From positions 1 to 34,912 of the IMG/VR virus record IMGVR_UViG_3300037189_009513: DNA of 34,912 bases. One strand, written 5' to 3'. A program made the position numbers and the translations under genes. Under the pieces are notes generated by a model. The model was not told the origin of the DNA and ran no database searches. It saw nothing but the letters and a program-made list of their open reading frames with translations. The stretch is from a virus. How positions within the stretch are numbered: the stretch's first letter is position 1; each line of letters starts with the position of its first letter. Shown in pieces: positions 10,061-25,215 of this stretch.

Positions 10061-10519
10061 ATGGCAGAAGGAAAAACATATGGTATTAATTTCCCATTTA
10101 GAGACTCATCTAAAGGTACTTATTTTTCATTATCAGAAGAAAGTGATGAAGAAATTAGAAGTAGTTTAGTGCATTTATTATTAACAAGAAAAGGAACAAG
10201 ATATTATCTTCCTGATTTTGGAACTAGATTATATGAGTTTATTTTTGAACCTTTGGACGGACCTACCTTTTCAGATATAGAATCTGAAATAAGAGAGGCG
10301 GTTTCCGAATACATACCTAATATTACAATTACCAACATTAGTATCCAAGACGCTTCATTAGAAGATGAAGACAAAGGAACCTTCATTAATAGTAATAATG
10401 AACGGGAATATGTGGTTCCTGGTATTGGAGAAAAGGAACACACTGCTAAAATTAAAATAGACTATACTATCACATCATCGGCGTTTAATCCGAGTGATTT
10501 TGTAATTATTAATATATAA
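10061..10519 (+). CDS. 25: Baseplate wedge protein, T4 gp25 / lysozyme-like family (152 aa)
   Basis: This is a gp25-family (GPW/gp25) baseplate protein, the conserved sheath-initiating component of contractile tails. Visible family features are the N-terminal G-I-N-F-P-F-R-D, the helix S-L-V-H-L-L-L-T-R-K-G-T-R-Y-Y-L-P-D-F-G-T-R-L (about 46-68; the usual gp25 version has R-x-G-E-x-x-x-x-P-x-F-G) and the following F-E-P-L-D. The C-terminal strand ends I-N-I. In this copy Thr-Arg replaces the usual Glu after Gly of the R-x-G-E motif. A gp6 homologue follows after 6 nt, the order seen in many myoviruses. It is the first gene of the tail operon. Confidence 0.92.
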   Translation: MAEGKTYGINFPFRDSSKGTYFSLSEESDEEIRSSLVHLLLTRKGTRYYLPDFGTRLYEFIFEPLDGPTFSDIESEIREAVSEYIPNITITNISIQDASLEDEDKGTFINSNNEREYVVPGIGEKEHTAKIKIDYTITSSAFNPSDFVIINI

Positions 10520-10525
10520 AGTAAC

Positions 10526-12364
10526 ATGGCGAATAAAAAAATATCGTATACAACTAGGGATTTCCAACAGATAAGAACTGAGTTAATAAATTTCACAAGA
10601 CTTTATTATCCTGAACTTATCGACAATTTTAATGATGCTTCAGTATTCTCCGCATTATTAGATTTAAATGCGGCGGTTACCGACAATCTACAATTTAATA
10701 TTGATAGAAGTATCCAAGAAACGGTACTACAATATGCACAACAAAGGTCATCAGTTTTTAATATCGCGAGAACTTATGGACTTAAAATTCCTGGTCAAAG
10801 ACCATCAGTTGCTCTTGTTGATTTTGCAATAACTGTACCCGCTTTTGGGGATAAAGAGGATTTAAGATATTGTGGTATTTTAAGAAGAGGAGCTCAAGTT
10901 AACGGTGCGGGTCAAGTATTTGAAACTGTATATGATATAGATTTTTCATCTGCAATAAATGCTGAGGGATATCCTAATAGACTTAAAATACCTAATTTTG
11001 ATTCGAATAATAAGTTATTAAATTATACTATTGTTAAAAGAGAAACAGTTGTAAACGGTGTTACTAAAGTTTTTAAACGAACAATTACCGCAAATGATAT
11101 TAAACCATTTTTTGAGATGTTCTTACCTGAAAAAAATGTTTTAGGTGTAACTAGCGTTTTATTAAAAGATGGTACACAATATGCTAATGTACCTTCACCA
11201 CAAGAATTTTTAGGTAACGATAATAGATGGTATGAAGTTAAAGCTCTTGTTGAAGATAGAGTTTTTGTGGAGGACCCGACCAAAGTGTCTGACCAACCTG
11301 GTATAAAAGTAGGAAAATATTTAACAACTAACACTAAATTTATAACTGAATACACACCTGAAGGATTTTTAAAAATGACGTTTGGTGGTGGTAGTCAGTC
11401 GGCAGATGAACAACTAAGAGAATTTGCAAGAAATGGTCTTAAACTTGATTTATATAAGTACTCTAACAATTTTGCGTTGGGTAGTGTCTTGAAACCAAAT
11501 AGTACTTTATTTGTACAATACAGAATTGGTGGAGGGTCTGGTAGTAACTTAGGTATTAATGTTATCACACAAGTAGGAACTGTTTCGTTTTATGTTAACG
11601 GACCATCAGCGTCTGTAAATACAACTGTTGTAAACTCACTATCTTGTAATAATGTTACCGCAGCAATTGGAGGAGCTCCCGCTCCAACAACAGAAGAGGT
11701 TAGGAATTTAGTGACTTTTAACTTCTCAGCACAGAACAGAGCGGTTACGGTAAACGACTACGACTCAATAATCAGAATGATGCCTTCTCAGTTTGGAGCT
11801 CCTGCTAAAGTCGCAATTACTGAAGAAAATAATAAAATAAAAATTAAGATGTTATCATACGATGAATCAGGTAATCTAACTGAAATTGTATCGAACACAC
11901 TTAAAAATAATATCGCAAATTATTTGTCTAATTACAGAATGTTAAATGATTATATATCTGTTGAAAGTGCTAACGTGATTGACTTAACTTTGAATATTGA
12001 TGTTGTTTTAGACAATAGTCAAACACAAGGTGCGTTAATTGCTCAAATTGTAAATTTAGTTACTGAATATTTCTCACCGACAAATAGACAGATGGGGGAA
12101 AACGTTTATATTTCTGAGATTAGAAGACAAATACAATCCCAAAACGGAGTTATCTCAGTGTCAGATATCCAAGTGTTTAATAAGGTTGGAGGACAATACT
12201 CGTCATCTCAAACATCTCAAGGATATGTTGATAATGATACTAAACAAATTGGTTTGATTGACGATACTATATTTGCCGAAGCTAGTCAGACATACCAAGT
12301 TAGGTATCCTAGTAAAGATATTAACATCAGAATTAAAAACCTATCTACAGTTAATTTCTCTTGA
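10526..12364 (+). CDS. 6: Baseplate wedge protein, T4 gp6 / J-like family (612 aa)
   Basis: This is a baseplate J/gp6-like wedge protein. The N-terminal segment (Y-T-T-R-D-F-Q-Q-I-R then Y-P-E-L-I-D-N-F) and the helix D-A-S-V-F-S-A-L-L-D-L-N-A-A-V-T-D-N are typical of gp6-like proteins. A beta-rich middle includes R-R-G-A-Q-V-N and V-F-E-T-V-Y-D-I-D-F. The later motif A-V-T-V-N-D-Y-D-S-I-I (about 408-418) corresponds to the 'AVT..DY..l' region conserved in gp6/J proteins. In T4, gp6 dimers form the iris-like ring that links the six wedges. It follows the gp25 homologue by 6 nt. No truncation is seen, though the length is at the larger end for J-like proteins. Confidence 0.88.
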   Translation: MANKKISYTTRDFQQIRTELINFTRLYYPELIDNFNDASVFSALLDLNAAVTDNLQFNIDRSIQETVLQYAQQRSSVFNIARTYGLKIPGQRPSVALVDFAITVPAFGDKEDLRYCGILRRGAQVNGAGQVFETVYDIDFSSAINAEGYPNRLKIPNFDSNNKLLNYTIVKRETVVNGVTKVFKRTITANDIKPFFEMFLPEKNVLGVTSVLLKDGTQYANVPSPQEFLGNDNRWYEVKALVEDRVFVEDPTKVSDQPGIKVGKYLTTNTKFITEYTPEGFLKMTFGGGSQSADEQLREFARNGLKLDLYKYSNNFALGSVLKPNSTLFVQYRIGGGSGSNLGINVITQVGTVSFYVNGPSASVNTTVVNSLSCNNVTAAIGGAPAPTTEEVRNLVTFNFSAQNRAVTVNDYDSIIRMMPSQFGAPAKVAITEENNKIKIKMLSYDESGNLTEIVSNTLKNNIANYLSNYRMLNDYISVESANVIDLTLNIDVVLDNSQTQGALIAQIVNLVTEYFSPTNRQMGENVYISEIRRQIQSQNGVISVSDIQVFNKVGGQYSSSQTSQGYVDNDTKQIGLIDDTIFAEASQTYQVRYPSKDINIRIKNLSTVNFS

Positions 12365-12437: not shown

Positions 12438-15400
12438 ATGTCAAATTCATATAGAATAAGAACCGAAGTAGGTGTCGATAAATCATTAAAGGTATTACTT
12501 GAACAAGAATATGAATACCTTGAAATTTTATCACTAAAGGTTTTACAAAGTCAAATTTACACAAGACAATGCTCTGATTATGGAGTAGTTATTGGTAGAG
12601 TAACCGCTAATAACGGTTTCGGTATACCAAACGCTAAGGTATCAATTTTTATTCCTTTATCAGAGGAAGATGTAAATAATCCTGTTATCACAGAACTTTA
12701 TCCATACAAATCCTTAACAGATGTTAATGAGGATGGATACAGATATAATCTTTTACCTTACACACAACAACACAGTGGACATAACCCAACAGGGACCTTT
12801 TTTGATAAGGAAGACGTATTAATAAATCCCGCATTTATTGAAGTTTTTGACAAGTATTACAAATACACCGCAAAAACTAATGATAGTGGTGACTTTATGA
12901 TATTTGGTGTTCCTGTAGGGGAACAAACAATACATGTTGATGTTGATTTATCAGATATTGGAGAATTTTCTCTATCACCACAAGATTTAGTTAGAGTTGG
13001 TGCCGCGACTGAATCTCAAGTAGCGGGTACTACATTTAAAAGTTCCCCTAATTTAAATTCATTACCTCAAATTATTAGTATTAATAGAGTTATTGAAGTT
13101 GAACCACTTTGGGGTCAAGCCGAAATTTGTACATTAGGTATTGTTAGAACAGATTTTGATTTAACTAGCGAAGCTAATGTAGATATTACACCTACCGCAA
13201 TTTTTATGGGGTCAATAATATCAGACGCCGACAAGTACACCCAAAAGAAAAATTGTAAACCAAAGATAGGTAAAGGTAATTTATGCAATTTAGTTGCGGG
13301 GCCTGGGGAAATTTTAGCCATTAGACAAACCATCCAACAGGATGTAAACGGTAGACCCGTACTTGAAGAATTCCAATTAGAGGGAGGAGGTCAAGTAATT
13401 GATGAGAATGGTACATGGTTGATAGATGTCCCGATGAATTTAGATTATTACATCACAAACGAATTTGGAGAAAAGGTATTATCTAATGACCCTAAAAAAG
13501 GAGTCCCGACTAGAGGTAAATACCGATTTAAAGTTAAATGGAGTCAATCACCAAGTCTATCTGAAAATGTTAAAAGAGGGTATTTTTTAGTACCTAATGT
13601 TAAAGAACACGGATGGGAAATAGACGGAGGAGGAGTTAGAATTGACCCATTATTAAATCCATCCGCGTCATCGTCAAATGTTACCGATGCTATTAAATCA
13701 TACTCATTTAGTTTAGATTGGAACGACTACTCAGATATCCAAGCGGCAATTGATTGTGATGATACGTTTTATGATATGCAATATAATAAAGTTTATACGG
13801 TATCTCAATTAATTGACCAATATAGAAATGGTTACTCCGCTAGTAGAATTATAGCAGTAAAACATATTTTAGATGATGTATGTGAAAGTGAAAATGTTAA
13901 ATTCCCAACTAACGATGCGTTTCTTAGATTTGATATAATTTATCTATTGTTTACCATAATGATGTTTATTTTTAAACCTGTTATATATTTGGTATTGGTA
14001 ATATGTCACGTATTAGCGTTTTTATTAAAATTCATACTTGGACCTATTTTAGCAATTTTGGTTGCCGTAGTTTTTACCATTGTTATTATTATTTGTGAAT
14101 TTATAAATGGTATCATATGGGTTATTAACTTATTTGCTAATGTTAATGAATTAGATTGTCCTAATTTTGAGGATATGCAAGAGTTAATTGATAAAATGTT
14201 AACTTTATGGGAATATTTTGTCAAATTAAATTTACCAAATTTAAGTTATGATGATTGTGAGTTATGTTCTTGTGATGACCCACAGTCTCTTGAGTTTAAT
14301 AATCCTGGTACAAGTCCTGTAAGTGTTGATACTGAAGGTATTATCCAAAATTCAGGAGGTAATTCTTTTTTAACTAACTTTACTGATAATACTAAATATA
14401 ATATTAACCCCGCATACACTTACCCATCTGCATTCCAAACGGTAATGGCGGGTGCAGGATTTACAGGTTCAGGACCTAAAACATTTGCACCTCAAATGAC
14501 TAAATATGGTGATGACGGTAGTGGTAATGATAGACACATTTTTACTAGTAGTATTCCTATTACGGAAAGATTAAATTTATTTAATAATAAAGCAAAATAT
14601 TTTGACGATTTTGGAGGAACAAACCCTGGCGGTGGAAGTAATAGAGTTAAAGTTACTTTTGACACAACATTAAACAATCCGAATACAACTTATCACTACG
14701 ACAATGTAATTGCAATACTATGTAAAGAGAGTAAATTAGTTAATTTTACTGCGGGACAAATTGTGTCATTCCAAGACCCAACATTATCTCAAGACGTTAA
14801 CTTAACAGGTTTCACACAACTAAATCAATTTGCAACAAAAAGTATCACAGGAACCTCTATAAATGATGGTCCTGGGTCAACAATCACTGTTAAATACTCA
14901 AACCCATCTTCTTTTGATGGTTTACCATTACAGAGTACCCTTTATTCCATCACTCAAAATCCTGACGATGCAACATATGCAAAATTCCCAATGGACGTTG
15001 AGTATTTCCAAGTTATAACCGCAATGACTTATAATTCATTTGATACTTTATGTACCCCAAACCAATTATCATTAAATGATAGGTACTTAAACAATACAAT
15101 GAAAATTGAATATATTAATTATGATAACTGTTGGAATGGTACATATCCTGAAAATCCTTTAACATCATACGATAACTATGAAAATCAAGTATTGGTGTTT
15201 TTAGTTAGAGGTGTTGACCCTTATTCATCTCGAAAAGAAAACAGTTACGATTTAAGTATATTATTTGGCTATAATACATGGGATGTTCCTGGACTAACAG
15301 TTACGGGAGAATACAAATTAAATCATCCAATAAAAGGTGGGGTTAATTCTGTTAGACATACTATGTTGTCAAATGTCGCAACAACCGACGCTTTAGGTTA

Positions 15401-17513
15401 TAACTTGTATTATGATTCATTCCATTTTGTACCTGAAACAAACCCATCAAATGCAGGATTTACAGGGTTTACATCAACACTTCCTAGTTATTACTCAAGT
15501 TTAGACTTAACTAATTTATCGTTTACCCCAACAGGGTCTTACGCTTTAAATTATGTTTGTGACGGAGGAGTTTATAATGCAGCGTCTGTCAAGTCGTTCA
15601 TTACAGATAAAAATGGATTCCAAGTTGAATGGGACACCGCGTTTTCAGTACCTTGTACCATTAAAGTACCTAACCAAAATATATATCCAACAGATAATAG
15701 AGGATATTTTGATAATGAAATCGTAGAAGGTGGTTCGGCTATGATGCAAATTATATCGCTACCACCACTATCAACAACATCATATGCTAATGGGTATACT
15801 TACGCTCCTAAGTACACCACTTCACCATATTCTTATAATAATATACTGACGAATAGTAATCAAATAATTATGAGGTCAGATAGATTACCGACCTCAACAC
15901 TTACTAAAGAAACATCGAATAATAGTTTCCCATTACATTTAAATCCTGATTTCAGCGTGTATTTATTTTCTGATGACGGAGTTGTAAATTCTGAAAGTAC
16001 GGGAACACAAAACACTGGCTCAATAAATGGTAATCAAGATAATACTACTCCACAAACTAATATCAGTAACCAAGTCTTGGATTCATTTAAATGTGGAGAA
16101 ATGGTTCCCCTTGGTTGTTATACATCAGTACCTGGTAGTCCATGTGGAGGAAGTTCTACTGAAATTGGTATAAAACCTACAGGTGATGGGTGTTATGAGA
16201 ATGGGACCAATGGAGAATTAATTATGAAAAATGGTTGTTATGTCACAATCACCGAAATATTTGTATCTTTACCTAAAGATTTTAAAATATTAACTGAATG
16301 GTCATCTAGATTATTAATCACGTTTGGGGCATGTAGAAATGTGTGGTCACAAATGTTCACTAATAATTGGATAAACGGAACGTTATACGCATTTGCGTTT
16401 AAAAATGACAGATTCTTTACAGGACCTACTGACACCCCACCTAATTCTCCATATAGTAATTATTGTCGAGATACTATAATTTTACACCCAACTACAAATA
16501 ACTTTTATTATAGAAGTAGCCCATGGGATGGTTCTGATTTTATAGGTTCAGACCCCGACAGTGGGTTCTTTGGTTCATTTGGGGGAAATGATAAAAATTT
16601 AAAATTCCCAACAACTCTTTTAGACATGGGACCTAGGACTAATTATATACAAGAGTTAGTTATGTCGGATGATTTTGATGGGTATGTTGCGAATAAAATG
16701 ACATCAACAACTTTTACAGATATTTCAGATATTTTGAATTTATTTATTATCAGTCGTTTAGCAAATACAAGTTTTTTAAGTCAATTATTTGGAACTTCAG
16801 GAGCTAATATTACTTCATATTTTAATGGTAGAACTAAAAGAATGGTTGACGGTGATTATGCTCAAATGGTATCTATTAGTTCAGAATTAGGAGTTGCGGA
16901 ATTTGACTCTGATAGTTATCCACAGATACCTAATGGTCAAGACCCTGTATTTTTTAACGGAGCGAATTCATCTGATGGAGTATTCGGAATTTTCTTTTCA
17001 TCCGATACTCAGGTTAGAGATTTTATAACACCAAAAAGAACAATAATCAATGAGAATACAACACCAACCGATGATTGTGCATTTAACTACTTTAAAGTGT
17101 TTTCACAAACAGTTCCTTTTTATCAATGGAAAATAAATCCTGGAAACGCCGATAGTATTTTTGGTTCTCAAACTAATGAATGGTATACCTCATCACTAAA
17201 CGGTAGCGGATTCCACACTAATAAGTACCAATCAATGGATAGATTATTAGGTTCTTCAAGGTATATGAGAACGAATACAAGTACGTTAATAAAAGACTTT
17301 AAAGGGTATATATATTCATATAATATGACTCCTGCACCTGGGTGTGTCCCAGGGTACAATACGAGTCCAACCTCAACAATTCCTAATAATCCTGGCCCAA
17401 GGATATTTACTGTAGGAGCACCTTTCCATTTTTATTTTGGACTTAAAAAAGGTAAAACCGCTTTTGATAGGTTTACCATAAAATGGATTAAAACAGATGT
17501 AATTACGGATTAA
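12438..17513 (+). CDS. Giant tail/baseplate protein with internal hydrophobic multi-helix block (1691 aa)
   Basis: No single family is recognised. The N-terminal region has an Ig-like/carboxypeptidase-regulatory-like fold: V-I-G-R-V-T-A-N-N-G-F-G-I-P-N-A-K-V-S-I-F-I-P (about 48-70), then T-N-D-S-G-D-F-M-I-F-G-V-P-V-G (about 147-161). Residues about 500-567 are strongly hydrophobic and would make about three membrane-spanning helices (I-Y-L-L-F-T-I-M-M-F-I-F, and L-A-I-L-V-A-V-V-F-T-I-V). An acidic, Cys-rich stretch follows (C-E-L-C-S-C-D-D, about 606-613). Residues about 620-1691 are Asn/Thr/Ser/Tyr-rich and beta-like, as in large virion proteins. Its position after gp25 and gp6 supports a baseplate or tail role. 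The next gene starts 2 nt after its stop. A baseplate hub or membrane-penetration role is inference. Confidence 0.7.
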   Translation: MSNSYRIRTEVGVDKSLKVLLEQEYEYLEILSLKVLQSQIYTRQCSDYGVVIGRVTANNGFGIPNAKVSIFIPLSEEDVNNPVITELYPYKSLTDVNEDGYRYNLLPYTQQHSGHNPTGTFFDKEDVLINPAFIEVFDKYYKYTAKTNDSGDFMIFGVPVGEQTIHVDVDLSDIGEFSLSPQDLVRVGAATESQVAGTTFKSSPNLNSLPQIISINRVIEVEPLWGQAEICTLGIVRTDFDLTSEANVDITPTAIFMGSIISDADKYTQKKNCKPKIGKGNLCNLVAGPGEILAIRQTIQQDVNGRPVLEEFQLEGGGQVIDENGTWLIDVPMNLDYYITNEFGEKVLSNDPKKGVPTRGKYRFKVKWSQSPSLSENVKRGYFLVPNVKEHGWEIDGGGVRIDPLLNPSASSSNVTDAIKSYSFSLDWNDYSDIQAAIDCDDTFYDMQYNKVYTVSQLIDQYRNGYSASRIIAVKHILDDVCESENVKFPTNDAFLRFDIIYLLFTIMMFIFKPVIYLVLVICHVLAFLLKFILGPILAILVAVVFTIVIIICEFINGIIWVINLFANVNELDCPNFEDMQELIDKMLTLWEYFVKLNLPNLSYDDCELCSCDDPQSLEFNNPGTSPVSVDTEGIIQNSGGNSFLTNFTDNTKYNINPAYTYPSAFQTVMAGAGFTGSGPKTFAPQMTKYGDDGSGNDRHIFTSSIPITERLNLFNNKAKYFDDFGGTNPGGGSNRVKVTFDTTLNNPNTTYHYDNVIAILCKESKLVNFTAGQIVSFQDPTLSQDVNLTGFTQLNQFATKSITGTSINDGPGSTITVKYSNPSSFDGLPLQSTLYSITQNPDDATYAKFPMDVEYFQVITAMTYNSFDTLCTPNQLSLNDRYLNNTMKIEYINYDNCWNGTYPENPLTSYDNYENQVLVFLVRGVDPYSSRKENSYDLSILFGYNTWDVPGLTVTGEYKLNHPIKGGVNSVRHTMLSNVATTDALGYNLYYDSFHFVPETNPSNAGFTGFTSTLPSYYSSLDLTNLSFTPTGSYALNYVCDGGVYNAASVKSFITDKNGFQVEWDTAFSVPCTIKVPNQNIYPTDNRGYFDNEIVEGGSAMMQIISLPPLSTTSYANGYTYAPKYTTSPYSYNNILTNSNQIIMRSDRLPTSTLTKETSNNSFPLHLNPDFSVYLFSDDGVVNSESTGTQNTGSINGNQDNTTPQTNISNQVLDSFKCGEMVPLGCYTSVPGSPCGGSSTEIGIKPTGDGCYENGTNGELIMKNGCYVTITEIFVSLPKDFKILTEWSSRLLITFGACRNVWSQMFTNNWINGTLYAFAFKNDRFFTGPTDTPPNSPYSNYCRDTIILHPTTNNFYYRSSPWDGSDFIGSDPDSGFFGSFGGNDKNLKFPTTLLDMGPRTNYIQELVMSDDFDGYVANKMTSTTFTDISDILNLFIISRLANTSFLSQLFGTSGANITSYFNGRTKRMVDGDYAQMVSISSELGVAEFDSDSYPQIPNGQDPVFFNGANSSDGVFGIFFSSDTQVRDFITPKRTIINENTTPTDDCAFNYFKVFSQTVPFYQWKINPGNADSIFGSQTNEWYTSSLNGSGFHTNKYQSMDRLLGSSRYMRTNTSTLIKDFKGYIYSYNMTPAPGCVPGYNTSPTSTIPNNPGPRIFTVGAPFHFYFGLKKGKTAFDRFTIKWIKTDVITD

Positions 17514-17514
17514 T

Positions 17515-19302
17515 ATGGGTAATCGAAATGATTTAAGAGTTGTTTTAGGGTCTTTAAGATACAAGTCAGCACCAAACACTAACTTGTTTTTTCAAGTACC
17601 ATTAAAACAAACATTTAAGGAAAATACTGAATTTGATAGAAGTATTGACGTTGATTTAGAACAAGTTTTTTTAAATGAAAGACAAGAGTCTGATACTTTT
17701 AGACCAACTTGTAAATTTTCATTATTATTTAAAAATTCATATTCAGGATTTACAAACTACCCTCCGTTTGAAAATAACTTATACTATTTAAATGCTCAAG
17801 AAGCCGCGGCAGCTCAATGTTTAGGAGGAAACCCTAACTCGATTAGTTGGACGGGAGTACCCCAATACAATGAATTTGATTTTATAAGAAATGATTATGA
17901 TGTTACAGGATATACACAATCACCTAATGAACATATAATTTTTTCACCTAAAAGTGCAACATCATATAATTGGAACTTTTTTGTGAGTTATGCTTATGAA
18001 AATGATTATACTAAACAAATGCAGGCAATTGATTATAAAACTAACATAACTTTAAATTGGGTTGTTGGTGATGGAATACCATTTATAATTGAAAAGGTTG
18101 ATAGTGGTGGTTTAGGTCAAATTTCTTTTAGGTGTCCTGTTAAACATGGAATGTCGGTTGGGGAATTTGTTAAATTAAGTCTATCGTATAATGGAAGTGA
18201 TATTTTTCAGATAACATCGTTAGGGGCTCAAACTTATGACAGTGATGAATACGTATTTAACATTGTTGATGTTGGTTATACCAGTGTCTTTAACAATAAC
18301 GTAACAGGTACCGCTAAAAGAGTTATCTTACAAGATAATGAATCAGATACTATATCTGAATATTATGTTAGAAGACATAAAATGTTAACAGGTTCTGAAA
18401 ACGCCGTTATGACAAAGGCGGGATTCGAGCAAAATATTTTTGGTGAAATAAAAAAATACGAAAGTAGTGGATTCACACCAAATCAAGTTTCTAGAGTTTC
18501 AGTTAAAGAAGGGTCACAGTCATATACCCTTTCCTTCAATAAAGATATTAAAATTAACCCAATAAGGGATAATCAAAAAAGACCCTTAACTGAATTATTT
18601 TTTAGTGTATTATGGAAAGGGTTCTTTGGTTGGACATTTGGATTACCTAATGGTAGTGGAGGATTTAATGGTATTAAAGAAGGGTGGGAATTTAATTTAC
18701 CACTTAATTCATCAGGTTTACCAAATAGTTGGTGGAGTAATTCTAATTCTGATTCTAACACAAACATTCCTGTTGGTGTATATAATACTGCTCAAGGAGT
18801 ACCACCTTATGTTTCACCATCGTTTAATGGGTTTACATATATCGAATCACTTAATGAGGGGGATGTTATTGACGGTGATATGTGTGAGTGGAATAACTAT
18901 GACCAAAAAGAACGAGTAATTTCTAATTTGTATCATAAATTAAAATTTAACCCTTTTGTCTTCTCAATAGGAGGGAACCCGTCAAATCCTTTAGGTTATT
19001 ATTACCAACCACACCATAGTTTAACTATTAGAGTTTTTTCAGATTACATTGAAGACGGTGACCCGCAAGATACTGTTGGAATACCTGACTACTCGTACTT
19101 CTCAACTACAAAAAATTTATTCATATGGAGAGATTTATATCCTTATGGGTATATTGATAGTTCATTTAACGGAGTTAATTATCCATTTTTAAACGGGGTT
19201 CATTACCCATTTAATAATAACATCTTTAGAATAATACCTGAAGGAACTAATTATAATGAACAGAACATAATAGCGGAACCATTAATTGACGACTGTGAGT
19301 AA
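17515..19302 (+). CDS. Tail/baseplate structural protein, unknown family (595 aa)
   Basis: The ATG lies 1 nt after the previous stop (TAATATG), indicating coupled translation. The protein is beta-rich, with many Asn, Gly, Tyr and Ser and few cysteines. It has no signal peptide or convincing membrane helix. The N-terminus has V-P-L-K-Q-T-F-K-E-N-T-E-F-D-R-S-I-D-V, which looks like a domain start; later parts have L-F-F-S-V-L-W-K-G-F-F-G-W-T-F-G (about 362-377). The composition and the neighbours on both sides make a virion protein very likely. No catalytic motif is seen. Confidence 0.72.
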   Translation: MGNRNDLRVVLGSLRYKSAPNTNLFFQVPLKQTFKENTEFDRSIDVDLEQVFLNERQESDTFRPTCKFSLLFKNSYSGFTNYPPFENNLYYLNAQEAAAAQCLGGNPNSISWTGVPQYNEFDFIRNDYDVTGYTQSPNEHIIFSPKSATSYNWNFFVSYAYENDYTKQMQAIDYKTNITLNWVVGDGIPFIIEKVDSGGLGQISFRCPVKHGMSVGEFVKLSLSYNGSDIFQITSLGAQTYDSDEYVFNIVDVGYTSVFNNNVTGTAKRVILQDNESDTISEYYVRRHKMLTGSENAVMTKAGFEQNIFGEIKKYESSGFTPNQVSRVSVKEGSQSYTLSFNKDIKINPIRDNQKRPLTELFFSVLWKGFFGWTFGLPNGSGGFNGIKEGWEFNLPLNSSGLPNSWWSNSNSDSNTNIPVGVYNTAQGVPPYVSPSFNGFTYIESLNEGDVIDGDMCEWNNYDQKERVISNLYHKLKFNPFVFSIGGNPSNPLGYYYQPHHSLTIRVFSDYIEDGDPQDTVGIPDYSYFSTTKNLFIWRDLYPYGYIDSSFNGVNYPFLNGVHYPFNNNIFRIIPEGTNYNEQNIIAEPLIDDCE

Positions 19303-20101
19303 CAAATTTTTATTTACCATACCTAACGATACCAAAGGAATTCAAATCCCAATAGAAATGAAGTGGGATTTTTATGGTCGAACTGATAGTATTGAACTAT
19401 ATGAGGAAGATGTATTAACCACTATTATAGGTGTTGCAGATGATTTTGAAGTCGTAAGATTTTCACATAATTCTTATGGGAATAACGAAGAAACTAAACT
19501 TGGGTATGAGTTTTATTTTTACGATGGACCACCACCTACAAATCAAACTGTGTTAACCTCAACAGTAACAGATTGGAAAAATAGTTATTTAGCCGAAGGA
19601 TTTAATGGTGATGAAATTTACTATTATTCTAAACCATTTACAAAATCATTTTTTAAGTTGGATTTTTATAATACTAATGACACCATTACACAAACTAATT
19701 ACTTTAGTGTTATTATACCTGTACAACAAGGTGGAACAGAAAATATTAGTATATCACCATTAATACCTAATGTTAATATTAGAAAACCAAAATACTCTTT
19801 AGACTTTGTTGGGGATAAAGAAGGGTTTTTCTTGTATTGGTTGGTAAATACCGAGTTTTTAAATCTTAACACTTTTTATATGTCGGCTAAATTTTTTGAC
19901 GGTAGATTGGGGGTGTTTGTTAAAATGATGAACGAACCACAATCATCATTACCAAACAAATTTGTGTTTGATAATTCTAGATATTTCTTTAACAAAGTAG
20001 TATTAGATTATACTACTAAAACATATGAGGTTTTTGATTATTTAGACAACCGTATAGGTGCGGGAACACCAATAAAATGGTATGAATATATTAACCCATA
20101 A
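19295..20101 (+). CDS. Tail/baseplate structural protein, unknown family (268-271 aa)
   Basis: Two near-cognate starts are possible: TTG 19286 or GTG 19295. Both overlap the end of the previous gene. GTG is chosen because it leaves a short 8-nt overlap (GTGAGTAA). There is no ATG nearby, so a non-ATG coupled start is likely. The protein is rich in Phe, Tyr, Asn and Asp and looks all-beta: I-P-I-E-M-K-W-D-F-Y-G-R near the N-terminus, K-S-F-F-K-L-D-F-Y in the middle and I-K-W-Y-E-Y-I-N-P at the end. The stop overlaps the next ATG (TAATG). No family is recognised; a virion component is inferred from the operon. Confidence 0.72.
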   Translation: MSNKFLFTIPNDTKGIQIPIEMKWDFYGRTDSIELYEEDVLTTIIGVADDFEVVRFSHNSYGNNEETKLGYEFYFYDGPPPTNQTVLTSTVTDWKNSYLAEGFNGDEIYYYSKPFTKSFFKLDFYNTNDTITQTNYFSVIIPVQQGGTENISISPLIPNVNIRKPKYSLDFVGDKEGFFLYWLVNTEFLNLNTFYMSAKFFDGRLGVFVKMMNEPQSSLPNKFVFDNSRYFFNKVVLDYTTKTYEVFDYLDNRIGAGTPIKWYEYINP

Positions 20102-21285
20102 TGGACGAAAGATATTACAGTATTAGAATATCACCCGAAGTTATTAAGAATGATTTGTTTTTACATCCTTATAACGCGGGTGATTCAGAACCAAATATTG
20201 ATGACCCATGTTGTGAAATAGTAACATCAACGACTACACAACAATATACGGGTTATACTTATGCTTATTCATCGATGACCCAAGTGGTTAGTGGGGGTAC
20301 TAATGGTGATTCTTTATTAACAGGGTTAACTGTACCTGTATTTTTAACTGAAACAACTGTAGATATTGGTTATTATTCAGTTTTTGATGGGATGGTTCTA
20401 CAGAAAGATACCATGACTAATTTTTTATTCTCAGCTTCGACATTCTCACCTTATGAGTATTATTTTTATAATACTTCTGATACGGAATTTAAAAAATATT
20501 TGCAATTCGCAACTTATATGGTTGATTGGGGTGACGGAAGTCCCACCGAACTGATTACCTCAACGGCACCTAATTATTATAATCATACTTACGCCCAAGA
20601 CGGTGAGTTCACTATTACTTTTTCGGGGATGAGTCCTTGGGGTACCAATATAGTTGAAAAAACTGTTTATGTACCATTTACAGGAGTAACGGTACCAAAC
20701 CCTAATGGAACCGCATATTTTTTACCTGCGGGAGGTAATTGGTCAGGTACTCCTTTAATGTACGATTATCTATTTACAGGTGATTCTAATTGTGATGTGT
20801 ACGACCAATCAAGTTATAATTACACAACAGTACCATTTTTAATTTCAGGGTATACTAAATCAACAATGGCCGATTTACAACAGTATGGTAGTAAGTATAA
20901 TCCATTAATGTATGGTGGGAAATATAAAATAGGGGTACAAGTTACGGGTACATCAGGTAACATTGGTACTTTTTGGGGACCTTCATCTGATAATATCTAC
21001 ACCGCCTATACAGTAAATGACATTGATTATTATGATTATGATGATGGTACTACTGTATTCATGACTTATTCGTCAGGTATGACACCTGATATGATGGTCT
21101 GTTCCGCAATTACTAAAAATGAAGTATTATTGAATGTAATTGACGAAGCAGAAATACAAAGTAATGTATTTATAGAAAGGGGTAAAAACTCGGCATTAGA
21201 ACGAATCCAAAGGTTAGGAGAAGTTGATAATGTTGGGGACCTTGAAAAATACGGATACAAATTTTTTAATGTAACAAATACTTGA
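20101..21285 (+). CDS. PKD-domain tail/baseplate protein (394 aa)
   Basis: The ATG shares its A with the previous TAA (TAATG). Residues about 138-200 form a PKD-like Ig-fold domain with the hallmark V-D-W-G-D-G-S-P-T-E, then N-H-T-Y-A-Q-D-G-E-F-T-I-T-F. PKD domains are extracellular protein- or glycan-binding beta sandwiches common in Bacteroidota surface proteins. The rest is Tyr/Thr/Ser-rich and beta-like. The C-terminal about 50 residues are charged and helical (N-V-F-I-E-R-G-K-N-S-A-L-E-R-I-Q-R-L) and end Y-G-Y-K-F-F-N-V, which looks like a docking segment for attachment to the baseplate or a neighbouring subunit. A role as a decoration or adsorption component is inferred. Confidence 0.75.
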   Translation: MDERYYSIRISPEVIKNDLFLHPYNAGDSEPNIDDPCCEIVTSTTTQQYTGYTYAYSSMTQVVSGGTNGDSLLTGLTVPVFLTETTVDIGYYSVFDGMVLQKDTMTNFLFSASTFSPYEYYFYNTSDTEFKKYLQFATYMVDWGDGSPTELITSTAPNYYNHTYAQDGEFTITFSGMSPWGTNIVEKTVYVPFTGVTVPNPNGTAYFLPAGGNWSGTPLMYDYLFTGDSNCDVYDQSSYNYTTVPFLISGYTKSTMADLQQYGSKYNPLMYGGKYKIGVQVTGTSGNIGTFWGPSSDNIYTAYTVNDIDYYDYDDGTTVFMTYSSGMTPDMMVCSAITKNEVLLNVIDEAEIQSNVFIERGKNSALERIQRLGEVDNVGDLEKYGYKFFNVTNT

Positions 21286-21289
21286 TAAT

Positions 21290-22195
21290 ATGGCAACAGG
21301 AACTTACGGAACAATAAGACCAGCGGACGTTTCACCTGAAGATGTTGATATAATTTTAAATTATACACCATCAAGGGATGAGACTAATAATTTTGTATTA
21401 ACTAAACTTGATGCAAAAACTTTATTACGACCTTATTTTAATAACACAAACACTGGTGGGTCAACGGTAGAAGTTTTAGGTGGTCTATATAACTTAACGT
21501 TACCTTCAGACCAATTCAATAAATTAGGGATATACACACTATATATTAGACCTGCACAAATAAGAACTACAATATTGGATTGTGGCGTTTTATCCTCATT
21601 ACCCAATGTTAGAGGTTTAGTTATTGATTTAAACTCAGTACCATCTGAATATAGAAATAAATTTATTAATCAAGGATTAGTAGGGTTTAGAATTGAATAT
21701 TTAAATACTGACGGTTCTAAAATCGCTAACTTTTTTAGAATAATAACCTCTTCATTTTTTTGTGAACCCATCGTACAAAATCTAACGAATACTTCACAAA
21801 AGGCAATTAGATATAGATATACTGAAAATAATACAAATTTAATTTTTTGTACATTATCACCATCTTCGGCACCGACTAACAAACCGAATTCAATACCATT
21901 TATTGGGCAACCAAACCAAAATATTGTAATAAGTAATACTTTCTTTAACCCAATCACATTAGATATTGAAGTTGCAGAACATGACTTCTCAACATTAGCA
22001 ATTGCGTTGTTTGGTAATCAGACTAAATCTATTGATGACGGTATCTACACATTATACGATACACAAAATAATATTTATAGACAATACAACCTTTATGAAA
22101 TTAGAGACCAATTTAATGAATTATTATTTGAGGTTAGACAAGATAGAGGTGATAATATTGATTTTAGTAAAAACTTTACAAACATAACACAATAA
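21290..22195 (+). CDS. Tail/baseplate structural protein, unknown family (301 aa)
   Basis: The ATG is 4 nt after the previous stop, and the TAA overlaps the next ATG by one base. The N-terminus (G-T-I-R-P-A-D-V-S-P-E-D-V-D-I-I) is reminiscent of short N-terminal segments that pack onto another wedge protein. The rest is a compact, beta-rich domain with few cysteines, ending Q-D-R-G-D-N-I-D-F-S-K-N-F. No signal peptide, membrane segment or enzymatic motif is seen. A virion role is inferred from its place between two tail proteins. Confidence 0.72.
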   Translation: MATGTYGTIRPADVSPEDVDIILNYTPSRDETNNFVLTKLDAKTLLRPYFNNTNTGGSTVEVLGGLYNLTLPSDQFNKLGIYTLYIRPAQIRTTILDCGVLSSLPNVRGLVIDLNSVPSEYRNKFINQGLVGFRIEYLNTDGSKIANFFRIITSSFFCEPIVQNLTNTSQKAIRYRYTENNTNLIFCTLSPSSAPTNKPNSIPFIGQPNQNIVISNTFFNPITLDIEVAEHDFSTLAIALFGNQTKSIDDGIYTLYDTQNNIYRQYNLYEIRDQFNELLFEVRQDRGDNIDFSKNFTNITQ

Positions 22196-25100
22196 TGGCG
22201 AATAAAAAATATACTTGTCCTCCACAATCTGCAACAGGTGCGGGTACTTTTTCTGACGACTTAGTTGGTTTACAATTAGTTGCTGGAGGAGGTCTAACTC
22301 AGGGTAACTTTGAGTTTGTCACGTCTGCGAATGAAAAAAGTAACAGGAATTTTATAACAGGTGTATTTTCAAACCCAATTAATTTAGATTCTATTGGTAT
22401 CACAAGTATCTTACAATCTAAAGCGATATTAGAAAATAATTTTAAAGTTTATCCTAATTTTGATTTAACTCAGGTAAATAATTTTACTTTGTATGGGTCA
22501 ATGGTTAAAAGGATGTCCGCATCCGTTACCAAAATCATTAGTTTTTTCCCTGCAGCAATTGAGTCGACATTTATGGGTATTAACTATGTGACGGGAGTTA
22601 CTGCTAATAATATCGTTTATAGTGAACAAAATGATTCGACAGTTTTCACATTAGATATTGCAAGACTTAGAAATCCGTTTGACGTTGACTTCACAAACAA
22701 CTCGACTAGAAATTTAGAACTTAAAGAAATTCAAGTATCTCCCTTAAGAGATATGAAAATACAATATGCAAAATACTCACTATTCTTTAAAGATAACGAG
22801 TATAAAGTAATTAATATTGTACCAACAGATAGTTTAACTAATGGTAATTTAGTATTAACTGTAAGTGGTAACCCATTTTCAGGTGAAACAATACTATTTG
22901 ATGATTTGGTTATAAGACCCAATGACCTTGAAGTTAATAGAGTTTTTAAAGAAATTTTTGATGAGGTTGAGCAATTTTTGTTAAATAGAAATGTCGCACC
23001 AAAATACACGTCAACATTCCAAATTCCTAGAGAAGCGGAAGACGGGAGTTATTATACACAAAGTCTAAATGTTACATGGCCATTATACGGTGCTTGGAAT
23101 ATCGACATATTAACTAAAGCCTTCGAAAGTTATATTACATCTTTGAATGATGTGAGTGAGTCTTTCGATGGGTATAAGACAAACTTAATCTCAAGATTTT
23201 TAACTACAGGGGCGTTTAAAGAATTTGACACCATAGGTCAAAAAATGGAGAAAGTATTACAAATCTATGGTAAAAGTTTTGACGACACAAAAAAATACAT
23301 AACCGCAATGTCTTTTATGACATCGGTTAATTATAATGTTGGAAATGATATTCCTTCACAGTTATTAAAAAATTTAGCACAAACTTTAGGTTGGACAACT
23401 AACATGTCACCAATATCAAATGATGAGTTATTATCATCTGTTTTTGGGTCAACTAAACAAAGTAAAAGTGATTTTTCAGGTATTTCAGAAGTACAAACAC
23501 CTGATGAACTTAATTACCAATATTTTAGAAACTTAATTTTAAATTCAGCCTTTTTATTTAAATCTAAAGGTACTCGTAAGTCAATTGAGATATTATTACG
23601 ACTTATAGGAGCTCCTGAAGCGTTAATTGATTTTAACGAGTATGTATATTTGGCCGACCAAAGAATAAATCTATCCCAATTTAATGAACAATTTGTACAG
23701 ATTTCAGGTGGTACTTATGTTGAAGATACTCCAATACTCGACCCTACAGATATATACTCAATATTTGGGGTTAGTTATACAGGGTTTACAACTAGTAACA
23801 CAATAAAAGACGTTAATATAACAATTGATGATTATCCGATGGATGAATTCGGATACCCATCAGCACCACCCGATAGTGAAAGTTACTTCTTCCAAAAAGG
23901 AAGTGGATGGTTTGAACAGACACCACAACATAGAGCTCCCGAGCAAGTTGATATTACTAACAATGTATTCGTAGGTAATAATCCTAACTATCAAACGGTA
24001 TTGGCTCCATATTCATATGGTCAAGAATACTTAAATCGTTTTAGAAAATTCCCATTTATGGATTTGGGTTATCAGTTAACTCCTGTAGTTGATAATAACA
24101 AAAGTTGGGTTGATAATGAAGTTGGTATCAGAACTAATTTAGATGGTAATTTTAACGCTAGATATTTTGTTGAGGACGACAGATTGGTTCTTAACGTTAA
24201 AAATGTTGACCTTTTCTTAAACCCCGCTCAAGGACTATCTTATGATGTTTGGGTAATGTCAAGAGAATATAATTACCCAATACCTAATCAAGGTATGAAT
24301 TATGTTCCACCAACATATTGTGACCCTAAACCATATAGTCCTTATCCTAGTCGAGGAGGTGTTGATTGGACTGAAATTATTCCATTACCTAAGAGAAAAA
24401 CTTTCTTTGAATTCGCCCAAACTTTTTGGGTTAATATGATTAATGTTAGGAATAGACAGTTCGCGACAAATGGTAAAACAGGTGGATATCCTACATTAGA
24501 ATCAATCTATTGGAGATATTTAGAATCACAACAAACAGTTAATATACCTAATGATAATTTTACGTATAAAACAATGATGGACTACGTAAATGGTTTAGGT
24601 GATTATTGGATTAGACTTGTTGAACAAATGGTGCCAGCGACTACTATATGGAACACTGGTATTAGATTAGAGAATTCAATATTCCACAGACAAAAATTTG
24701 TTTGGAGAAGACAAGAGGGATGTCAATTAGTACCAACCCCTTGTAAACCATGTTCATTGATTAGTAACATTTTCACATACGACTGTCCTATAGAGAGTGT
24801 AGAATGTGCAATTTATCCTTGGACTAACAATCCATTGATACAGAGTTTAAATGGGGTGTTAGGGGTTACATTACAATCTTACCTAACCGCAAATGGTTAC
24901 GCGTTAAATGATTGTGATTTTAACGGAATGACAACAGAATGGTTTGTTGACATTAGAGTTGATGATATTGTTGTTGTAAGTTACCCATTCTTTAATGGGG
25001 TTGGTTACAGTAGCCCAACATATAGTTCCCCTACAGTTAGTATGTGGGATATTGCTTTAGAAAATGCTTTAGAGAGTTTAAAAGATTACGGTTATGATTA

Positions 25101-25215
25101 TTATTTAACAGAAGAGAATACTGTTATAATTTATAATCAAGTATGTTCAGTTTCTGAACAAGGTGTTAATTTTAAATTAAATATAGGAATAAACTTTGAA
25201 ATATTATGTAATTAA
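22195..25215 (+). CDS. Large baseplate/tail protein with fibre-connector-like middle (1006 aa)
   Basis: The ATG overlaps the previous stop (TAATG). The N-terminal third is beta-rich. A helical middle, about 300-490, includes T-G-A-F-K-E-F-D-T-I-G and Y-F-R-N-L-I-L-N-S-A-F-L-F-K-S-K-G-T-R-K. It then runs through S-I-E-I-L-L-R-L-I-G-A-P-E-A-L-I, a pattern typical of tail-protein-I/gp7-like baseplate wedge components. After a beta-rich region there is a Cys cluster (C-x6-C-x2-C, then two more Cys, about 843-870), followed by a C-terminal domain with repeated short beta strands. It is probably a large wedge protein supporting the adhesin encoded next. The family assignment is tentative. Confidence 0.72.
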   Translation: MANKKYTCPPQSATGAGTFSDDLVGLQLVAGGGLTQGNFEFVTSANEKSNRNFITGVFSNPINLDSIGITSILQSKAILENNFKVYPNFDLTQVNNFTLYGSMVKRMSASVTKIISFFPAAIESTFMGINYVTGVTANNIVYSEQNDSTVFTLDIARLRNPFDVDFTNNSTRNLELKEIQVSPLRDMKIQYAKYSLFFKDNEYKVINIVPTDSLTNGNLVLTVSGNPFSGETILFDDLVIRPNDLEVNRVFKEIFDEVEQFLLNRNVAPKYTSTFQIPREAEDGSYYTQSLNVTWPLYGAWNIDILTKAFESYITSLNDVSESFDGYKTNLISRFLTTGAFKEFDTIGQKMEKVLQIYGKSFDDTKKYITAMSFMTSVNYNVGNDIPSQLLKNLAQTLGWTTNMSPISNDELLSSVFGSTKQSKSDFSGISEVQTPDELNYQYFRNLILNSAFLFKSKGTRKSIEILLRLIGAPEALIDFNEYVYLADQRINLSQFNEQFVQISGGTYVEDTPILDPTDIYSIFGVSYTGFTTSNTIKDVNITIDDYPMDEFGYPSAPPDSESYFFQKGSGWFEQTPQHRAPEQVDITNNVFVGNNPNYQTVLAPYSYGQEYLNRFRKFPFMDLGYQLTPVVDNNKSWVDNEVGIRTNLDGNFNARYFVEDDRLVLNVKNVDLFLNPAQGLSYDVWVMSREYNYPIPNQGMNYVPPTYCDPKPYSPYPSRGGVDWTEIIPLPKRKTFFEFAQTFWVNMINVRNRQFATNGKTGGYPTLESIYWRYLESQQTVNIPNDNFTYKTMMDYVNGLGDYWIRLVEQMVPATTIWNTGIRLENSIFHRQKFVWRRQEGCQLVPTPCKPCSLISNIFTYDCPIESVECAIYPWTNNPLIQSLNGVLGVTLQSYLTANGYALNDCDFNGMTTEWFVDIRVDDIVVVSYPFFNGVGYSSPTYSSPTVSMWDIALENALESLKDYGYDYYLTEENTVIIYNQVCSVSEQGVNFKLNIGINFEILCN

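Follow-up and report, generated by a model that had tools for sequence, protein, structure and literature searches.

It is still a matter of debate how DNA passes through the host membranes once the envelope has been pierced by the tube of a contractile phage. The membrane-active candidates known are mostly tape-measure proteins, long helical proteins that lie inside the tube. Among these, the phiCD508 tape measure (gp59) possesses a three-helix transmembrane domain, and a hydrophobic stretch of T4 gp29 has been proposed to help form a channel (PMC11948020). Predicted transmembrane helices are also carried by the Streptomyces davawensis effector Tme, a large contractile injection system protein whose gene adjoins baseplate genes (PMC11126660). 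In T4 itself, a helical core bundle forms the foundation of the (gp6)2-gp7 wedge (PMC10457771; PMC6300606). Among the large myoviruses of water, the bS21 phages are predicted to infect freshwater Bacteroidetes (PMC9723584). The core genes of the 'moraphages' include those for gp25, gp6, sheath, and tube; a tape-measure gene was not identified by the authors (PMC12619734).

We analysed a large protein encoded at the baseplate locus of an environmental phage, within a window of 34,912 nucleotides (positions 1 to 34,912 of IMG/VR virus record IMGVR_UViG_3300037189_009513). It was found that this 1691-aa protein contains a membrane-grade helix that is real and conserved, located at window positions 13935-14129 (residues 500-564). 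The features of the locus are collected in Table 1.

Table 1. Positions of the features described at the baseplate locus, in window coordinates.
Feature	Position	Strand	Evidence
gp25-like baseplate wedge / sheath initiator	10061..10519	+	PHROG 261, E 4e-18
gp6-like baseplate wedge gene	10526..12364	+	PHROG 219, E 2e-25; Pfam Baseplate_J
1691-aa protein bearing the hydrophobic stretch; family conserved among uncultured large phages	12438..17513	+	
Residues 43-249, beta domain, weakly transthyretin / carboxypeptidase-regulatory Ig-like	12564..13184	+	Pfam CarboxypepD_reg, VIA-align
N-flank motif [NV]-K-F-P-T-N-D, residues 487-493	13896..13916	+	P490, N492, D493 in 77/77
Residues 500-564, the hydrophobic block, modelled as a single continuous helix	13935..14129	+	hydropathy, AF2, alignment
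Conserved block core, residues 500-546, [RKT]-P at 513-514, less hydrophobic stripe every 3.6 residues	13935..14075	+	
His524, sole invariant residue inside the block	14007..14009	+	77/77 homologues
C-flank motif P-x3-Y-x2-C-x2-C-x-C, residues 600-612	14235..14273	+	alignment
Large beta-rich part, residues 640-1691	14355..17510	+	AF2 pTM 0.53
595-aa downstream neighbour, no family assigned	17515..19302	+	
Three conserved neighbours (271, 394, and 301 aa), no family assigned	19286..22195	+	
1006-aa protein	22195..25215	+	phmmer

We first describe the block itself, in which residues 500-564 read IIYLLFTIMMFIFKPVIYLVLVICHVLAFLLKFILGPILAILVAVVFTIVIIICEFINGIIWVIN. Leucine, isoleucine, valine, phenylalanine, methionine, and alanine make up 74% of these residues, and the only charged or titratable ones are K513, H524, K531, and E554. 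The best 19-residue Kyte-Doolittle window of the block reached 3.10, compared to 1.18 for the next best elsewhere in the protein, and no such window exceeded 1.77 in the other listed open reading frames of the window. Neither this maximum nor the 65-residue maximum of 2.41 was reached in any of 10,000 residue shuffles, and segments with negative insertion energy were confined to the block. On the basis of hydropathy and shuffles, the hydrophobic block that a preliminary description had placed at 13935-14138 (residues 500-567) is real, with coordinates correct to within a few residues.

The conservation of the block was assessed among 77 non-redundant homologues (<95% identity). The preliminary description had proposed looking for the same block in homologues, and it was kept in every one of these proteins, all differing by more than 5%, with no loss among the close ones. 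The best window of the block was at lowest 2.29 (median 2.90), while elsewhere in the first 900 residues it was at most 1.63. Among 57 distinct homologues, distant members shared only 9-30% identity with the window protein inside the block versus 38-55% outside it. Compared to three close relatives, the block had 25-30 synonymous codon differences but only 10-13 amino-acid changes, which were mostly from one hydrophobic residue to another (9/10, 9/13, and 11/13). Because hydrophobicity is constant while the sequence diverges, with changes mostly hydrophobic-to-hydrophobic, selection therefore keeps the property of the block and not its sequence. A base-composition artefact was considered as the cause of the block and was excluded by the shuffles, the synonymous excess, and the presence of the block in all 77 divergent homologues.

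Across the family, the membrane-grade stretch measured 35-100 residues, and leucine, isoleucine, phenylalanine, and valine accounted for 67% of the core, compared to 0.3% for aspartate and glutamate. Besides the invariant histidine, Pro514 was found in 65 of the 77 homologues. The acidic cysteine cluster reported after the block was likewise confirmed, with P600 in 75, Y604 in 74, C607 in 77, C610 in 76, and C612 in 75 of the 77 proteins.

We then examined the shape of the block, which had been described as enough for about three transmembrane helices. The biological hydrophobicity scale does count three weakly negative-energy segments in the window protein, which are not separated by polar loops; the number in homologues ranges from one to four. 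The AlphaFold check that had been suggested was run with AF2 on a 35-member alignment; it returned the block as helical but as one helix spanning residues 500-564 and not three (10-residue mean pLDDT 59-84, in an overall model that is poor, pTM 0.40). The periodicity agrees over residues 498-545, where the family-mean hydrophobicity peaked at 100-101 degrees per residue, a peak matched in none of 5,000 permutations. Across the core (residues 498-544), the less hydrophobic face changed in phase by at most about 63 degrees, and the stripe comprises positions 502, 506, 509, 513, 517, 524, 527, 532, 535, and 539, His524 among them. By our own estimate, three separate segments would agree in phase by chance perhaps 1 time in 15 to 1 in 30, and seven of the aligned 77, the window protein among them, carry a one-residue insertion at 531 that would shift the phase. 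Because of these two points the single helix is supported but not proven. Rather than three transmembrane spans, we favor one predicted long helix along which a less hydrophobic stripe runs; as a single helix, the core would extend over about 47-65 residues (70-95 A), exceeding one membrane span without polar loops.

The remainder of the protein gave fewer leads. No Pfam or PHROG family was matched above the cut-off, and outside the block AF2 predicted mostly beta structure at moderate confidence. For residues 43-249, the CarboxypepD_reg family (PF13620) scored 21.4 bits, below its curated cut-off of 32.3, and VIA-align gave a weak similarity to teneurin (Z 6.5, rmsd 2.0 over 80 residues). A fold search with the C-terminal 1092 residues (pTM 0.53) returned nothing convincing. 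These searches were weak because the models were only moderate (pLDDT 60 and 67; pTM 0.40 and 0.53). By eye, a signal peptide was not apparent at the N-terminus.

The gene neighbourhood was highly consistent. Counting only loci with room for the gene in question, the gp25 gene was upstream in 120 of 120, and the gp6 gene was directly upstream in 133 of 133, within 100 bp in 114. Downstream, the 595-aa neighbour was present in all 91 loci, within 64 bp in 90 and 540 bp away in one, and the 271-, 394-, and 301-aa neighbours were kept in 83/83, 73/73, and 65/65. In the window, genes for an SSB, a UvsX-like recombinase, an exonuclease, a DnaB-like helicase, and a ribonucleotide reductase precede gp25 and gp6. 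The term 'tail protein' in the preliminary description fits a wedge operon of a contractile-tailed lineage, and gene order is the evidence from which we infer that the 1691-aa protein is a virion component.

The 1006-aa protein was related to large proteins encoded after gp6 in Microcystis phage Mel-JY01 (phmmer E 4.7e-7), phage LR756508 (0.0022), and Flavobacterium phage immuto (0.0028). Those proteins were considered as counterparts of the 1691-aa protein and rejected, being without the hydrophobic block and related to the 1006-aa neighbour. It was noted that five genes (12438-22195) stand between gp6 and the 1006-aa protein, whose relatives adjoin gp6 more closely in these three phages.

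In 15 of the 133 loci, an open reading frame of about 300 aa lies between gp6 and the gene of the 1691-aa type (L014:3639-4535, L121:6958-7923, L155:5998-6909, L159:7006-7929, and 11 others). Four of these proteins, analysed over their whole length, combine one or two N-terminal hydrophobic segments with an alpha/beta-hydrolase part possessing a GHSxG elbow and conserved Asp and His. These lipase/esterase-like proteins gave weak Pfam matches to DUF900 and lipid-droplet hydrolase, DUF900 being above the cut-off in one, and the gene is scattered within a 35-tip clade of the tree. Their sequences suggest that this spot may be concerned with lipids or membranes. Another occupant of the gp6 gap was noted at L111:2409-3602, a 398-aa open reading frame whose start resembles IS605-type TnpB by eye. 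In three other phages with related gp6 genes, proteins of 98-122 aa with an N-terminal hydrophobic segment are encoded 4-5 kb upstream of gp6 (L080:9535-9828, L081:8940-9305, L082:9255-9581).

Relatives of the 1691-aa protein were found in at least 592 IMG/VR stretches. In contrast to this, no match was found among 50,697 deposited phage records (tblastn, E 1e-5), and N- and C-terminal pieces, searched with the E limit raised to 10, yielded at best weak Mycobacterium phage matches (best E 0.2) or none. No relative was found among about 85,000 bacterial and archaeal species represented by one genome apiece, among PDB sequences, or among PHROGs. A 322-kb relative (G001) carries sheath, tube, and hub genes, and the tail is therefore taken to be contractile. 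The bS21 gene was found in the 322-kb and a 272-kb relative. In G001, the relative in which the strands were compared, bS21 (243337-243495, + strand) is opposite to the portal (244264-246126, - strand) and terminase (249009-250775, - strand). The bS21 phages are large myoviruses of water, and this opposition of bS21 to portal and terminase matches them (PMC9723584). From these sequence features, the carriers look like bS21 or 'mora' phages of Bacteroidota, and the host group of these uncultured large phages is probably Bacteroidota. The 1691-aa protein and its block are not described in the consulted parts of the two papers (PMC9723584, PMC12619734). It was also noted that G001 encodes, in its adhesin/fibre region, a 1329-aa protein (184673-188659, - strand; L173:13673-17659) with a separate hydrophobic stretch at residues 425-457 (best window 2.41); no match was found in seven other relatives.

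Some tape measures likewise possess a hydrophobic or transmembrane stretch. T4 gp29, used as a control, reached a hydrophobic window of 2.20. Like T4 gp29 and phiCD508 gp59, whose stretches are proposed to act on the host membrane (PMC11948020), the 1691-aa protein is a large protein of the tail locus with a membrane-grade helical stretch. Tape measures, however, are helical and lie in the tube, while the 1691-aa protein is rich in beta structure and its gene belongs with those of the wedge. The tube/hub cluster of G001 is separate from the wedge locus and contains its own helix-rich, soluble protein of 559 aa, a candidate tape measure because of its location, its helix content, and a weak match to PHROG 788 (E 0.0074). 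This probable tape measure and four homologues possess no hydrophobic stretch (best window at most 1.35). The 1691-aa protein differs from a tape measure in being mostly beta outside the block, in AF2 models of moderate confidence, and in not being encoded beside the tube/hub genes. Tme is similar in being large, in its hydrophobic helices, and in being encoded beside baseplate genes, but it is tape-measure-related with a nuclease domain, and no such features were found in the 1691-aa protein.

Beyond the sequence, the gene order, and the predicted helix, we infer. Our leading reading, held at slightly less than an even chance, is that the block is a membrane-engaging helix of a baseplate protein that acts during infection. 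The 1691-aa protein would be present in the virion in several copies per baseplate, and before infection the helices would be shielded by each other, via the less hydrophobic stripe, and by partner proteins. Adsorption or contraction would then expose them, and they would enter or disturb whichever membrane comes first, as a rule the outer membrane under the baseplate, so that the baseplate would be anchored or tube passage eased. Elsewhere this job may partly be done by the hydrophobic stretches of tape-measure proteins, and a probable tape measure without one fits a membrane role moved to the 1691-aa protein. The extreme block, its conserved hydrophobicity, the wedge synteny, the stretch-less tape measure, and the membrane-anchored hydrolase of 15 loci count for such a helix. 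Against it count the T4 gp7 precedent, the over-long and loop-less helix, and the wedge position, and the variation from one to four predicted segments among homologues is awkward for a fixed topology.

T4 gp7 is the closest parallel. Its gene (L197 5061-8159) is also directly after gp6, the protein is large, and a transmembrane-grade helix lies at about residues 886-906 (19-residue window 2.07 at residue 886, insertion energy -0.59); its record states that the 'C-terminus is predicted integral membrane domain'. Among the remaining wedge and hub proteins of T4 that were tested, no window exceeded 1.66. The preliminary description called membrane segments unusual in baseplate or tail proteins; a transmembrane-grade helix is, however, not unique to the present wedge-locus protein. 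An incomplete search of the literature found no description of transmembrane helices in wedge proteins. Yet the structure of gp7 as a component of the wedge is known from several PDB entries, and mainly for this reason membrane insertion is not claimed here.

This precedent favors a second reading, which we consider a serious though somewhat less likely alternative, that the helix never meets lipid and is a hydrophobic structural rod in the interior of the baseplate, packed perhaps against the gp6 dimer or its own copies. The helical core bundle of the (gp6)2-gp7 wedge (PMC10457771, PMC6300606), the one continuous helix drawn by AF2, and the 100-degree stripe expected of a helix packed on one side all agree with burial. 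However, the gp7 helix is single, about 20 residues long, and near the C-terminus, whereas the block is in the N-terminal third, three times longer at 65 residues, and far more hydrophobic. Its circumference is mostly I/L/V/F, so nearly every face would need a hydrophobic partner, and the gp6-like protein of the window offers no matching segment (best window 1.25). Nor was a sequence relation to T4 gp7 found by profile comparison (hhalign E 0.38-0.62, both for T4 gp7 itself and for a gp7 profile of 18 members), although very distant homology is possible at these values; the gp7 profile did not match the 1006-aa and 1028-aa neighbours.

Further readings were weighed. During T4-type contraction, wedge proteins remain on the surface of the cell, and the inner membrane is normally beyond their reach. 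The DNA-translocation channel in the host inner membrane envisaged in the preliminary description is therefore doubtful, and we regard it as very unlikely. In such a multi-helix pore, the less hydrophobic stripe and a ring of His524 would face the lumen through which the genome passes to the cytoplasm. The stripe with its invariant histidine and the probable tape measure without a hydrophobic stretch would suit a channel, but a wedge protein would remain outside the outer membrane, the helix is longer than one bilayer, and the segment number varies from one to four. During translation, the signal-recognition particle should recognise a hydrophobic segment of this kind, and this counts for an assembly anchor, with the protein inserted in the host inner membrane during synthesis and baseplates built on it there. 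The membrane-anchored hydrolase encoded alongside in 15 loci points the same way. This anchor is nonetheless quite improbable, as long folded domains lie on either side of the block, no signal peptide is apparent by eye, and finished virions would need an extra step for release from the membrane. As an unlikely elaboration of the membrane-engaging helix, long helices with the invariant mid-helix histidine might assemble as a His-lined bundle, a membrane-penetrating element moved from the tape measure to a giant baseplate protein, and this bundle would open or anchor the host membrane when the baseplate fires.

If the membrane-engaging reading is true, a membrane helix at the baseplate locus would be a second, testable solution for DNA passage in a large environmental lineage, and the single invariant histidine is an obvious target for point mutation. 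If the helix is instead buried, it would be a warning that transmembrane-grade helices encoded beside gp6, T4 gp7 included, can be soluble.
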